From assembly GCF_004564135.1 (NCBI RefSeq), contig NZ_CP038255.1, positions 1,396,501 to 1,460,500 on the forward strand: a stretch of 64,000 bases of DNA. Direction: 5' to 3'. Below the pieces are notes generated by a model. The model saw only the letters and a program-made list of their open reading frames with translations, had not been told where the DNA came from and searched no databases. Both the position numbers and the translations under genes were made by a program. The number at the start of each line of letters is the position of its first letter. Positions within the stretch are counted from its first letter, which is position 1. The stretch comes from Terasakiella sp. SH-1. GTDB taxonomy: Bacteria; Pseudomonadota; Alphaproteobacteria; Rhodospirillales; Terasakiellaceae. Positions 45,777 to 50,709 of this stretch are shown piece after piece.

Positions 45777-47627
45777 ATGAGTTTCTGGCGAAAAATTACA
45801 TTTCCACGACAGCCGATCCAATCTGTTTTGTTTTTTGGATTTGGGGGCCTGACTTTGTTGGCGGTGACTGTGGTGTTGTATCTTGGTCTGAAATATACCA
45901 CCAATATTACTAAAGATTACCATCACTTGATGATCGAATCTGCACTGGATAATCTGACAAGTGAGGTTGAAGGGCTTTTATTACCTGTAGAAAGTCAGGC
46001 CCTGTGGGTCAAAGATCAGGTTGAAGGCCGACATGTAAACCTTGACGATTATAAAAGTCTGGAAGTTTTTTTGCGCGGGGTTTTAGCCGGGACACCTAAT
46101 GTCACAGGTCTTGGCTTTCAGTATCCGGATGGCGTGTCGCGCTATGTCATTCGTGAAAAAAGCCAATGGGTTGAACGTTCTTTTATCAGTACAGAAGAAA
46201 ATCGGCTATTTTTTGAAAACATGCAAAACGTACAGACAAATGTCTGGAGCCGCTTTTTTTGGGATGAAGAAGACCAGCAAACTCTCGTTGATGTGCGTAC
46301 CCCTATTCGTATTGATGGGGAATTAAAGGCGATCTTGTTTATTGGGGTGACGGTTGCTGATTTGTCTAAAAGTATTTTAATGACTTCGACAGATCGTTTT
46401 TTAACCCCGTTTATCCTTTATGGTCGGGACCATCTTTTGGCGCACCCCTTGTTGACCAGCGGCAGTACGGTGACGCAAGATCTGGCCTCACAGGCGGACT
46501 GGATCCATGGTAAAGGCGAAATCCCCTTGCCAAAAATCAGGGACTTTCAAGATGCCAAGCTTGATCAACTGATTAATGGCCCCGTGATTAAGGCGGGCTT
46601 GGTTACACCGATTGAAGGGGTGGCGGTTAATCGTGCGCGAGTAAATGATGATCTGCATATCGTTGCGACACAGGAATTGACGCGTTTTGGGAAAACACCC
46701 TGGGTTTTGGGTGTTTATATTAATGCGGAAAAATCAGACCGCACACAAGCCATGCAGCTTTTTGAGATGGCAGGGGCCGGACTTGTTGTTTTATTGGTGT
46801 CTGTTGCCCTGTCTCTTAAGGTCGGTAAAAAAATGGCGCGTCCTATTGTGCGTTTGGCCGATGCGGCCCGCACTGTGCGCAGGGGCGGCGTTGAAGATTT
46901 GCCTGCCTTGCCACGTAGCCGTTTGCGCGAACTGGATCAAGCCGCCCTTGCTTTTAATGAAATGGTCGAGGGATTGCGCGAACGTGATATGATTCGCGAA
47001 GTTTTTGGCCGATATGTTCCTGAATCGGTGGCCTCTTCGCTCATGCAGGAAAATGGGGTGCTTCAACCAATTGCCACCCAGGCAACGATTTTATTTTCTG
47101 ATATTGAAGGATTTACCCAGCTCACTGAACAAGTTGGCCCGGAAAAGATTGTCTCCATTTTAAATGAATATTTTTCCGCTGTGGTAGAGGTATTGGAAAA
47201 ACACGACGGTGTGGTCACTCAGTTTCAGGGGGATGCGGTTCTTGCGACATTTAATGTCCCTATTCAATCATTTGATCACGCAGAAAAAGCATTAAGGGCA
47301 GCGCTTGAAATTAAGGGAATGCTTGAAAAACGGACCTTTGACGGCATTGTGTTAAAAAGCCGGATTGGGCTGAATAGCGGAAATGTGGTTGCCGGTGCTG
47401 TTGGGGCAGAAGGCCGATTAAATTATACGGTCCATGGGGATGCGGTGAATTTGGCAGCGCGTGTTGAAAACCTGAATAAACACTTTGGGACAGACATTTT
47501 AATTTCAGGAAATACAGCACAGCATGTGCAAAGAATTGAGCTGAAATCCATCGGGACAACCGAAGTTCGAGGATTGAGCGTTCCCGTAAAATTGTATATT
47601 CCGAAAAACGTAACTTGTGATTCATAA
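45777..47627 (+). CDS. Membrane-bound class III adenylate/guanylate cyclase
   Basis: Predicted sensor cyclase. The 616-residue protein has a membrane segment (about 17-38), a periplasmic double-Cache-like sensor domain (about 45-320), a second membrane segment (about 327-347), a HAMP linker (about 348-402) and a class III cyclase domain (about 430-610). Metal aspartates Asp442 (FSDIEGFT) and Asp486 (QGDAV) and the transition-state Asn558/Arg562 (HGDAVNLAAR) are present. The position that holds the purine-selecting Lys in most bacterial adenylyl cyclases (K-F-x-G-D) is Gln482, so the product (cAMP, cGMP or other) is uncertain. It is divergent from dnaE and ends 55 bases before the DUF1538 cassette on the same strand. 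Weak ribosome site. Confidence 0.88.
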   Translation: MSFWRKITFPRQPIQSVLFFGFGGLTLLAVTVVLYLGLKYTTNITKDYHHLMIESALDNLTSEVEGLLLPVESQALWVKDQVEGRHVNLDDYKSLEVFLRGVLAGTPNVTGLGFQYPDGVSRYVIREKSQWVERSFISTEENRLFFENMQNVQTNVWSRFFWDEEDQQTLVDVRTPIRIDGELKAILFIGVTVADLSKSILMTSTDRFLTPFILYGRDHLLAHPLLTSGSTVTQDLASQADWIHGKGEIPLPKIRDFQDAKLDQLINGPVIKAGLVTPIEGVAVNRARVNDDLHIVATQELTRFGKTPWVLGVYINAEKSDRTQAMQLFEMAGAGLVVLLVSVALSLKVGKKMARPIVRLADAARTVRRGGVEDLPALPRSRLRELDQAALAFNEMVEGLRERDMIREVFGRYVPESVASSLMQENGVLQPIATQATILFSDIEGFTQLTEQVGPEKIVSILNEYFSAVVEVLEKHDGVVTQFQGDAVLATFNVPIQSFDHAEKALRAALEIKGMLEKRTFDGIVLKSRIGLNSGNVVAGAVGAEGRLNYTVHGDAVNLAARVENLNKHFGTDILISGNTAQHVQRIELKSIGTTEVRGLSVPVKLYIPKNVTCDS

Positions 47628-47682: not shown

Positions 47683-48417
47683 ATGAATCCTGGCTTTAAA
47701 AGATTTCTTGGCTTGTTTGTTGGCGCATTGCGCGATCTGGCGCCAATCATACTTGTGATTGCATTTTTCCAGATCGTTGTGCTGCAACAGCCTTTCCCAA
47801 ACCTGGATAAAGTTATTCCGGGCCTGTTTTTAGTGGTCATGGGACTTGCCTTTTTTATTCAAGGCTTGGAGATGGGGCTGTTCCCGCTTGGTGAAAGCAT
47901 GGCTAATGCCTTTGCCCGAAAAGGCAGTGTAATTGCGATTTTAGCTTTTGCTTTTGCACTCGGTTTTGGAACAACGATTGCTGAACCTGCCCTTATTGCC
48001 GTGGCTGCTGAGGCTGCTGAGATTGCAGCTAAAGGCGGCCAAATCGCTTTAGACGCAGAAGTGCAAGCCACGTATGCCAACCAATTACGACTTGTTGTGG
48101 CGCTTTCAGTTGGGTCTGCGATTGTTTTGGGTGTTTTCAGAATTTTAAAAGGCTGGCCGATCCAGTATTTCATCATTGGTGGTTATATTATTGTGATTGT
48201 CATTACGAAATTTGCTCCGCCAGAAATTGTTGGGATTGCCTATGACAGTGGCGGAGTGACGACCTCAACCGTGACGGTTCCGCTGGTGACGGCCTTGGGT
48301 GTTGGCTTGTCTTCAACCATCCGTGGGCGTAACCCGATGATTGATGGTTTTGGCTTGATCGCTTTTGCCAGTTTGACGCCTATGATCTTTGTTCTTATCT
48401 TTGGTATGGTGATGTAA
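47683..48417 (+). CDS. DUF1538-type membrane protein, first paralogue
   Basis: Function unknown; a probable transporter or channel subunit. The 244-residue protein has about six or seven membrane helices. Its signature motifs are RDLAPII near the start, [18 protein letters not shown] (about 97-108), [15 protein letters not shown] (about 205-219) and [10 protein letters not shown] (about 223-235). The same motifs recur in the next gene, so the two are paralogues, probably forming the two halves of one heteromer. The conserved polar residues within helices (T-T-x-A-E-P and D-S-G-G-V-T-T-S) look like a substrate path. The stop codon overlaps the next ATG (TAATG). Upstream lies a cyclase gene; no clear ribosome site. 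Confidence 0.82.
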
Positions 48418-49226
48418 TGCTGGAATGGATCATCAACATATCGGAAGCTGCCGTTGCGACCTGTCGTGACATTGCGCCTATTATTGTGATTTTGCTGGGC
48501 TTTCAGTTCCTTGTTATTCGCAAGAAAATCCCGAATTTCAGAAAAATCATTATTGGCTTTTTCTACGTTCTTTTGGGGCTGACACTATTTTTGGTGGGGC
48601 TGGAACAGGCTCTGTTCCCATTGGGTGAAGCCATGGCGACACAATTGTCTGATCCGGAATTTCTGGGCGCAGGCGGTGATCCGAGTTCCTTGACCTGGAA
48701 AGATTATTACTGGGTTTATATTTTCGCAGCGGCCATCGGGTTTGCGACAACGGTTGCTGAACCTTCTTTGATTGCCGTTGCGATCAAGGCTGAAGAAATC
48801 TCCGGTGGCAATATCAGTGCCTGGGGGTTGCGTGCTGCTGTGGCGATTGGTGTGGCCGTCGGGGTGTCTTTGGGAACTTTCCGTATTGTAACGGGAACGC
48901 CCCTGCCTGATTATATCATGGTGGGCTATATCGTCGTCATCATTCAAACGTTTTTTGCTGCTAAAACTATTATTCCACTGGCCTATGACAGTGGTGGGGT
49001 GACGACATCAACGGTAACTGTTCCAGTTGTCGCTGCCCTTGGTCTTGGTTTGGCCTCAACCGTACCGGGTCGCAGTCCGCTGCTTGACGGGTTTGGTTTG
49101 ATTGCCTTTGCCAGTGTCTTTCCAATTATGTCTGTACTGGCGTATGCTTTGATTGCCGATTACCGTGCAAAAAGAGCAAAAGAAGCCCAAGCTACAGATA
49201 CATCTTCATCAGGGAGTGAAGCATGA
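48417..49226 (+). CDS. DUF1538-type membrane protein, second paralogue
   Basis: Partner of the previous gene. The 269-residue protein repeats its layout: [53 protein letters not shown] and [10 protein letters not shown]. It differs in having a longer polar insert between helices (about 80-95) and a hydrophilic C-terminal tail (DYRAKRAKEAQATDTSSSG) facing the side where the PII-like protein would bind. The tail is a candidate docking or regulatory segment (inference). It is joined by TAATG to the gene before and by ATGA to the PII gene after. Confidence 0.82.
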   Translation: MLEWIINISEAAVATCRDIAPIIVILLGFQFLVIRKKIPNFRKIIIGFFYVLLGLTLFLVGLEQALFPLGEAMATQLSDPEFLGAGGDPSSLTWKDYYWVYIFAAAIGFATTVAEPSLIAVAIKAEEISGGNISAWGLRAAVAIGVAVGVSLGTFRIVTGTPLPDYIMVGYIVVIIQTFFAAKTIIPLAYDSGGVTTSTVTVPVVAALGLGLASTVPGRSPLLDGFGLIAFASVFPIMSVLAYALIADYRAKRAKEAQATDTSSSGSEA

Positions 49227-49573
49227 ACTTAAAATTGATCGTAGCCATGGTGGCTGATGAAAAAACAAATGTGGTTATTGATGCCGCACGTGATGCAGGT
49301 GCGACCGGGGCAACTACCATTAGCTCGGTTCGCGGCGAAGGTATGACACCGGAAAAAGGCTTTATGGGGCTTGAGCTGACCGCACAGCGCGATGTTATCC
49401 TGTTCCTGGTTGCAGGCACGCAGGCACGCCGCATTCTGGAAGCGATTTGTGAGGCTGGTAACTTTGATGAAGAGCCCGGCGCAGGTGTTGCTTTCCAAAT
49501 TGATATTGAAGATGCCGTTGGGCTGAATACACAACTCCCGAAAATTATGGAAGAAATTGCAGGTGAAGTATGA
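49223..49573 (+). CDS. PII-like signalling protein
   Basis: A 116-residue ferredoxin-like PII-superfamily protein: beta strand MNLKLIVAMVADEK, helix, then the T-loop region (about 34-54, SSVRGEGMTPEKGFMGLEL), strand DVILFLVAG, second helix and the B-loop-like segment EEPGAGVAFQIDI. The T-loop is a few residues shorter than in GlnB and has no Tyr for uridylylation; the canonical TGKIGDGKIF B-loop is replaced by PGAGVAF. It is thus not a nitrogen GlnB/GlnK but a transporter-associated PII-like protein. Ligand unknown; adenine nucleotides or cyclic nucleotides are plausible, since other PII-like proteins (for example SbtB) bind them. Overlaps both neighbours by 4 bases. Confidence 0.82.
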   Translation: MNLKLIVAMVADEKTNVVIDAARDAGATGATTISSVRGEGMTPEKGFMGLELTAQRDVILFLVAGTQARRILEAICEAGNFDEEPGAGVAFQIDIEDAVGLNTQLPKIMEEIAGEV

Positions 49574-49971
49574 CTGAGAAATCTTTTATCCGCGTCAGTG
49601 ATGTCATGTCCCCGAATGTGAAAACAATCGGGCGTGTTGCAACAATTGCTGAAGCCATCACAATGATCAAAGAGGAAAAAGTCAGCTCTCTGATCGTTGA
49701 ACGCCACAATGAAGGTGACGAGTTTGGCCTGTTGACCATTCGTGACATTGCCCGTGAAGTTGTGGCAACGGACCGTCCGGCAGCGCGCACCAGTGTCTAT
49801 GAAATCATGACCAAGCCTGTTCTGACAGTGCCTGCGGAAATGAATATTAAATATGCAGTTCGCCTGCTTGTTCGTTTCAGCCTGTCACGTGCTGTTGTGA
49901 TTGATCATGAGCGTAACCCGGTTGGGATCGTCACATTGCGCGACATGGTTCTGGGCTATGAAGACGATTAA
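49570..49971 (+). CDS. CBS-domain pair protein
   Basis: A 133-residue stand-alone Bateman module: CBS 1 (about 8-68, VSDVMSPNVKTI to LLTIRDIAREVV) and CBS 2 (about 74-131, VYEIMTKPVLTVP to GIVTLRDMVLGYE). Both halves keep the G-[LI]-[LV]-T-x-R-D ribose/phosphate motif, so binding of AMP/ADP/ATP or a related ligand is likely. It closes the cassette, overlapping the PII gene by 4 bases (ATGA), and is followed by a terminator. With the PII-like protein it gives the membrane proteins two soluble nucleotide-sensing partners. Confidence 0.86.
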   Translation: MTEKSFIRVSDVMSPNVKTIGRVATIAEAITMIKEEKVSSLIVERHNEGDEFGLLTIRDIAREVVATDRPAARTSVYEIMTKPVLTVPAEMNIKYAVRLLVRFSLSRAVVIDHERNPVGIVTLRDMVLGYEDD

Positions 49972-49994
49972 GTCCTCATAAAACTCAAGAATAG

Positions 49995-50029
49995 AAAAAG
50001 GCGGCTGTTTCCCTGATAGCTGCCTTTTT
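49995..50029. terminator. Bidirectional terminator between the CBS gene and lolD
   Basis: AAAAAGGCGGCT (49995-50006) and AGCTGCCTTTTT (50018-50029) pair with one G-U pair around an 11-base loop. T-runs flank it on both strands, so it can end the cassette transcript (plus) and the lolCD transcript (minus). Confidence 0.85.
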
Positions 50030-50709
50030 TATTGCTCAATGAGATGGCCGTCTTCCAGCTTGATGATACGGTCCATTTTTTGTGCAAGCACCGGGTTGTG
50101 TGTGGCGATCAGGGCAGCCAGTCCCTCTTTGCGCACTTCTTCAAGTAACAGGCCAAACACATGATCTGAGGTCAGAGGGTCAAGGTTGCCCGTTGGTTCA
50201 TCGGCAAGTAGAAGCTTAGGCTTGTTGGCAAGAGCGCGGGCAATGGCAATACGCTGTTGTTCCCCACCTGATAGTTCAGCTGGGCGATGTTCGCCACGTT
50301 TGCTTAAGGACACGGCCTCTAACAGTTCTTGTGCTCGTTTCAGGGCATCGGGGCGGCTTTTGCCATTGATCATCTGCGGGATGATAATATTTTCAGCGGC
50401 AGAAAACTCAGGCAGCAAGTGGTGGTATTGATAAACAAAGCCGAGATAGCGCCGACGCAATTTTGTTTTGGCATCGTCATTAAGATTGCTGGCATCTTGC
50501 CCATCAACCAAAATCGTCCCCGTGTCGCCTTTTTCCAACAGCCCAGCCGTTTGTAACAAGGTTGACTTCCCTGCCCCACTTGGCCCGACCAAGGCAACAA
50601 TTTCACCTTCATTAATCGTCAGATTGGCTTCTTTAAGAATATGAAGCGTATCGCGACCTTGCGTGAATGTTCGACACAGGTTTTGCAGTTCCAAGACAGG
50701 CTTACTCAT
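50029..50709 (-). CDS. lolD: Lipoprotein-releasing system ATPase LolD
   Basis: ATPase that powers release of outer-membrane lipoproteins from the inner membrane to LolA. The 226-residue ABC protein has Walker [10 protein letters not shown] (42-50), the LolD-type [13 protein letters not shown]-loop region, signature LSGGEQQR and Walker [13 protein letters not shown]. The ATG at 50709 overlaps lolC by 8 bases and matches the family start; the long upstream open frame is inside lolC. Confidence 0.95.

Follow-up and report, generated by a model that had tools for sequence, protein, structure and literature searches.

Among the described systems closest to the locus analysed here is UmpAB of Halomonas zhaodongensis, a heterodimeric Na+(Li+, K+)/H+ antiporter reported in 2017 (PMC5484666). 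The umpAB genes were cloned through the rescue of E. coli KNabc, a laboratory strain devoid of nhaA, nhaB and chaA; full tolerance requires both umpA and umpB, UmpA co-immunoprecipitates UmpB, and antiport spans pH 6.5-9.5 with an optimum at 9.0 (PMC5484666). The cloned umpAB pair is active in E. coli without a PII or CBS protein, and a term search of the paper's main text gives zero occurrences of PII, P-II and CBS (PMC5484666). This is the only biochemical study that we found for the UmpAB transporter family; two cable-bacteria papers cite UmpAB in a salinity context, and DUF1538 is among the growth-pH features of a machine-learning paper.

A second point of reference is the control of transporters by PII-family proteins. 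SbtB inhibits SbtA when AMP-bound, and a 2023 review names no cation/proton antiporter among the transporters under PII control (PMC10710835). Within the open-licence PMC literature, none of the matches listed links DUF1538/UmpAB to PII or CBS. The transporter is known, as is PII control of transporters; what looks new is their combination, in which the transporter would acquire a regulatory half composed of PII and CBS proteins.

The window, by which we mean the whole 64,000-nucleotide stretch of Terasakiella sp. SH-1 DNA that was analysed, contains such a combination. The initial annotation had described a four-gene DUF1538-DUF1538-PII-CBS cassette closed by a terminator, and open reading frames, Pfam scores and a 16-bp hairpin all agree with this description. 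The gene order is umpA-umpB-PII-CBS on the plus strand (47683-49971; ORF list and sequence), and the features of the region are as follows:

45777..47627, plus strand: HAMP-adenylate/guanylate cyclase gene, given for context (PF00211, 93.6 bits)
47683..48417, plus strand: umpA-like gene for a DUF1538 membrane protein of 244 aa (PF07556, 229.3 bits; NCBIfam UmpA, 369.3 bits)
48417..49226, plus strand: umpB-like gene for a DUF1538 membrane protein of 269 aa (PF07556, 228.6 bits; NCBIfam UmpB, 337.7 bits)
49223..49573, plus strand: PII-like gene, 116 aa (P-II, PF00543, 38.6 bits; cut-off 25)
49570..49971, plus strand: two-CBS-domain gene, 133 aa (PF00571, 76.2 bits, two stretches; cut-off 24)
49994..50030, plus strand: hairpin terminator with a 16-bp stem and a T tract (-22.1 kcal/mol, z -4.83)

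Successive genes overlap by 1, 4 and 4 bases. The first base of umpB is the last base of umpA (TAATG at 48415-48419), the PII start shares 4 bases (ATGA) with umpB, and the CBS start shares 4 bases (ATGA) with the PII gene. The terminator hairpin sits between convergent genes, and none of 200 shuffles matched its stability when 49985-50035 was folded; a consensus terminator scan that allowed loops of 3-8 did not have this hairpin in its list. The genome encodes a single DUF1538 pair and three P-II genes, two of them canonical (114.2 and 113.7 bits) and the third the cassette copy (37.9 bits in the same search).

The cyclase gene ends 55 bases upstream of umpA, and all five same-genus loci (L066-L069 and L071) have a cyclase directly upstream of umpA at a gap of 50-69 bases. 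Cyclase adjacency was rejected as a general trait: a cyclase is directly upstream only in the window's genus, and it lies about 3.5 kb upstream in three further loci (L118, L121 and L124). In one same-genus locus (L067, genome G003) a stop splits umpB into two open reading frames, possibly through an assembly error, and the PII and CBS genes are full length.

Both window DUF1538 proteins span the entire PF07556 profile (positions 1-211 of 211; Pfam cut-off 22.6) and are 46.9% identical to one another over 245 columns. They are encoded by two adjacent homologous genes with a start/stop overlap, which is the UmpAB-type architecture, and the overlap is the same as that in the 2017 clone (PMC5484666). 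The proposal in the initial annotation that the operon encodes a transporter is thereby borne out at the level of the UmpAB antiporter family, and its remark that no function was known for DUF1538 has been overtaken by the work on UmpAB (PMC5484666; NF041627/NF041628). These NCBIfam equivalog models for UmpA and UmpB have cut-offs of 490 and 500 bits; the window proteins give strong matches that fall under them (369.3 and 337.7 bits), so that the assignment stands at DUF1538 membership and not at the level of UmpAB equivalogs. The UmpA cut-off was reached in none of 398 phylum genomes and none of 390 genomes of another order. By family, the window pair is thus predicted to be a UmpAB-type cation/proton antiporter.

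One locus, L304 (genome G484), lies closer to the tested Halomonas genes. Its UmpB scores 505.7 bits, above the cut-off of 500, and its UmpA 428.7 bits, under the cut-off of 490. Upstream are genes for a 463-aa permease that weakly matches GntP and for an MFS protein of 402 aa. By description they resemble, in size and type, ORF1 and ORF2 of the 2017 clone, of which ORF1 is homologous to a putative citrate transporter of 464 residues and ORF2 is an MFS protein of 402 residues (PMC5484666). The umpA-umpB overlap is 4 bases in L304 versus 1 base in the clone, and L304 continues into PII (119 aa) and then CBS (137 aa), both overlapping. Identities between the window and L304 are 65.1% for UmpA, 59.2% for UmpB, 56.5% for PII and 36.1% for CBS. 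Since the 2017 insert held ORF1-4 only (PMC5484666), the L304 layout suggests that this insert probably ended just before the PII and CBS genes. If the clone did end before the PII gene, the published activity data describe the unregulated transporter.

A structural model of the transporter was obtained for a natural UmpA-UmpB fusion of 505 aa from another locus, L086 (pLDDT 90.0, pTM 0.89). The underlying alignment had 63 rows, 26 of which covered both halves, with separate UmpB rows left out; an alignment that mixed fused and separate UmpA and UmpB rows was rejected because, judging by its invariant columns, the UmpB rows had seemingly been placed on the UmpA half. In each half of the L086 model the helices break twice: at a conserved AEP that contributes E99 or E360 (breaks at residues 98-99 and 359-360), and within VTTST (180-184 and 441-445), where the break follows a conserved Asp (D175 and D436) by four to five residues. 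Helix breaks of this kind are typical of ion-coupled transporters, and the Glu of AEP and the Asp of DSGGVTT in each half of the model are likely cation/proton sites. A search of solved structures with the DUF1538 profile gave no match at E up to 1, and Foldseek with the fused model gave nothing at E <= 0.001 (best E 0.012, TM about 0.1-0.2).

The PII-like protein belongs to the P-II superfamily, as it passes the Pfam cut-off and its AlphaFold2 model (91 sequences, pLDDT 87.3) has a ferredoxin-like fold. All 50 Foldseek matches listed for this model are PII, GlnK or PII-like proteins, with a GlnK1 chain at the top and CPII and TTHA0516 also present. In an alignment with the genome's two GlnB/GlnK proteins, the cassette protein falls outside the canonical GlnB/GlnK group: its T-loop region shows a five-column gap and no YRGAEY, GAGV replaces GDGK, and RIR is absent. 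In canonical GlnB/GlnK, the T-loop Tyr serves uridylylation, and the Lys of GDGK and the Arg of RIR serve the nucleotide phosphates. A Tyr occurs in the T-loop columns of five of 148 main-clade PII sequences, and none of the 148 has Lys or Arg at positions 88-90 or 99-101. Nucleotide binding by the PII-like protein is uncertain because the canonical phosphate-site Lys and Arg are absent.

Other features of the family are well preserved. Invariant residues include G26, G29, G38 and G49, conservation is strong at K45, T46 (the window has G here), F47 and L50, and the short conserved T-loop has the consensus RGEG...KTFFGL (window version RGEGMTPEKGFMGL). Judged against the ligand contacts of GlnB, the adenine side of the pocket is seemingly kept and the phosphate side rebuilt. 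The sequence suggests that the cassette PII may be a sensor of adenine nucleotides whose ligand is non-canonical.

G-x-x-[ST]-x-x-D is the adenylate-binding motif of CBS pairs. The window CBS protein, in which two CBS stretches pass PF00571, has G-x-x-T-x-x-D in both domains (GLLTIRD and GIVTLRD), and its closest solved relative by profile is CBS-CP12 (5nmu, positions 3-121, E 2.1e-34). Among 119 CBS relatives, G..D is kept in 109 for CBS1 and 80 for CBS2, and G..[ST]..D occurs in 18 and 70, respectively. A Y-E-[IV]-M-x-K-P stretch at CBS positions 72-78 is nearly fixed, with K77 and P78 present in 119/119. Ligand binding by the CBS protein is plausible.

We consider it reasonably likely that the cassette encodes a cation/proton antiporter together with its own controls, a PII-like adenylate sensor dedicated to it and a CBS sensor. 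UmpA and UmpB would form a pseudo-symmetric inner-membrane heterodimer that exchanges Na+, Li+ or K+ for H+. The PII-like protein, which is probably trimeric, would dock its conserved T-loop onto the cytoplasmic face of UmpAB and, once docked, would alter transport according to the adenine nucleotide it has bound, and the CBS-pair protein would act as a second, optional adenylate sensor working with PII. Control would probably take the form of inhibition, on an energy-state or messenger signal, which is likelier than an obligatory role for PII and CBS because umpAB alone is active. In the window's genus cAMP is a candidate ligand, given the upstream cyclase of the adenylate/guanylate family. 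The initial annotation had envisaged two soluble nucleotide sensors gating the transporter, and both proteins do appear to be likely sensing partners; gating and ligand binding, along with docking, the direction of control, the identity of the ligands and complex formation, are elements that we infer.

A survey of DUF1538 neighbourhoods, of the kind that the initial annotation had proposed, found a consistent link. Of 155 distinct loci, 145 have a PII-like gene next to the DUF1538 pair and in the same orientation, so the possibility that DUF1538 shows no consistent link clearly fails. A CBS-pair gene is also present in 120 of these loci and absent from 35. PII is the constant partner of DUF1538 and CBS the optional one, and the partnership originally proposed for both proteins is therefore uneven, being nearly universal for PII and partial for CBS.

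These counts derive from a DUF1538 search of 40 relatives (24 positive) and 398 phylum genomes (126 positive), from which 79 loci in 77 positive genomes were hand-picked to spread families and joined with the window to give a first set of 80. With the window's own genome set aside, 23 relatives were positive, and the set draws on 22 of these (all but G010). In 74/80 there is a same-strand PII gene no more than 2.5 kb away, and a CBS-pair gene follows PII in 51/80; the CBS count leaves out low-scoring CBS proteins of 451-455 aa encoded upstream in L097-L099. The second set, the best 80 of 571 relatives and drawn from named genomes, gave 76/80 for PII and 73/80 for CBS. Five loci are common to the two sets, hence the 155 distinct loci, a count that excludes the plasmid loci L289-L291 and some further separately fetched loci; the second set is skewed to close relatives and both are skewed to Pseudomonadota.

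Ten of the 155 loci lack a neighbouring PII gene. Five (L064, L076, L150, L162 and L201) stop at a contig edge, and at L185 666 bases of contig remain. For the other four (L095, L096, L099 and L100), the same PII subfamily is found elsewhere in the genomes (G123, G132, G160 and G155), and the distant PII of G123 and G155 again precedes CBS. The PII copies of G160 include that of its second cassette, and the separation holds for one of the two G160 loci. At the level of whole genomes, both DUF1538 and PII occur in 120 of the 398 phylum genomes, DUF1538 only in 6, PII only in 5 and neither in 267 (main-clade PII profile at E <= 1e-10, 125 genomes; DUF1538 at E <= 1e-3, 126 genomes). Three of the six DUF1538-only genomes (G256, G274 and G309) have weak or partial DUF1538 matches. 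The Fisher value of 4e-87 takes no account of common descent, and family f66 contributes many of the genomes, so the counts outweigh the p-value. The linkage of DUF1538 with PII and CBS is far beyond chance.

Solitary PII copies adjoin unrelated genes, identified by Pfam in four of the five PII-only genomes as ETF-QO, Dus, MutS, SH3 and others, and at L281 and L282 a PII-CBS pair lies apart from umpAB, downstream of a malic enzyme gene. A location of solitary PII in bicarbonate-pump (DAB-like) operons, guessed from ORF sizes at L269, L283 and L284, was ruled out by Pfam (ETF-QO and MutS, with malic enzyme and Dus elsewhere). These contexts bear on the possibility that the natural substrate differs, for example bicarbonate or another Na+- or H+-coupled solute, with antiport as a side activity and PII acting as SbtB does on SbtA. 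The PII-controlled transporters in the 2023 review are uptake systems (PMC10710835) and no solved relative of the fold was found, both of which fit such a substrate. We nonetheless regard it as unlikely in view of the salt and alkali rescue, the Na+, Li+ and K+/H+ assays and the pH optimum of 9.0 reported for UmpAB (PMC5484666), and because the solitary PII copies put to Pfam adjoin no carbon-uptake genes.

Gene overlaps at every junction had led the initial annotation to fixed stoichiometry and a single complex. In both sets, duplicates included, umpB-PII junctions overlap in only 70/143 and are within 30 bases in 134/143. A CBS start with a 4-base PII overlap is available in 107/122, the start chosen being the one nearest to -4, a choice that favours this overlap. 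Gene overlap supports translational coupling, not stoichiometry. An obligate role for PII and CBS, as subunits or assembly factors of a fixed-stoichiometry transporter, would agree with the tight, overlapping operon and the near-universal presence of PII at DUF1538 loci, but we give it a slim chance, as UmpAB alone carries out antiport in E. coli (PMC5484666), CBS is absent in 35/155 distinct loci, and PII or PII-CBS lies apart from UmpAB in G123, G132, G155 and one G160 locus.

The linkage persists across architectures. UmpA-UmpB fusions occur in several lineages, a divergent fused form at L080, L081, L277, L278 and L286-L288 precedes two PII genes, with CBS absent, and L305, L306 and L307 each carry an extra PII gene and paired neighbouring cassettes, in one of which UmpA and UmpB are separate and in the other fused. 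Three of the six plasmid records found were examined. On two clostridial plasmids of the Bacillota (L290 and L291), fused DUF1538 precedes a 222-aa P-II protein in which two P-II stretches pass in Peptoclostridium and one in Paraclostridium. On a Methylocystis rosea plasmid (L289), DUF1538-DUF1538-P-II is near IS66 and IS4 family transposases, which indicates that the DUF1538-P-II unit can sit on mobile DNA. It is quite improbable that PII and CBS are merely co-transcribed for expression timing and have other targets, as solitary subfamily PII copies and the PII-CBS pairs away from umpAB (L281 and L282) might suggest, given a linkage that spans Pseudomonadota, plasmids of Bacillota and, by labels that may be wrong, MAGs of Nitrospirae (L210), Acidobacteriota (L214) and Bacteroidetes (L215), that survives fusions and duplications, and that at genome level joins DUF1538 and PII in 120 cases versus 11 with one of them alone. 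The alternatives weighed here are not mutually exclusive, and our estimates for them should be read accordingly.

Several observations also count against control of an antiporter by PII and CBS sensors, the reading we favour. The window proteins score under the equivalog cut-offs, UmpAB needs neither PII nor CBS to function in E. coli, the canonical PII phosphate site is missing and the adenylate motif is patchy in CBS relatives. CBS is missing from 35/155 loci, a trimeric PII and a dimeric transporter would be mismatched in symmetry, solitary PII adjoins unrelated genes and PII occurs without DUF1538 in 5/398 genomes, and we found no physical interaction, ligand or regulatory effect reported. 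Only tentatively do we extend this reading to a widespread control system in which trimeric PII-like adenylate (possibly cAMP) sensors and CBS sensors would jointly gate a heterodimeric antiporter governing Na+, K+ and pH. If true, PII signalling, hitherto associated with the uptake of nitrogen and carbon, would reach ion and pH homeostasis, energy charge would be linked to an antiporter that draws on the proton-motive force, and the UmpAB transporter family would gain a regulatory mechanism.

With UmpAB of Halomonas zhaodongensis the cassette shares paired, overlapping, homologous DUF1538 proteins, whereas the main text of that paper is without PII or CBS, the window proteins score under the equivalog cut-offs, and the measured antiport is that of the Halomonas genes. 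The two-CBS match is common to the window CBS protein, CBS-CP12 (5nmu) and stand-alone CBS pairs, but the window protein has no CP12 part and is the operon partner of a transporter. GlnK-AmtB offers the PII fold and the T-loop docking that is the proposed mode here, although the window PII differs in its five-column T-loop gap, lack of YRGAEY, GAGV for GDGK and lack of RIR. In SbtA-SbtB, as proposed for the cassette, a PII-family protein controls a secondary transporter; SbtA is a trimeric uptake symporter, whereas UmpAB is a heterodimeric antiporter, and the window system adds a CBS protein. The cassette shares with PII-controlled transporters the linkage of a PII gene to a transporter gene, which is found in 145 of the 155 distinct loci.
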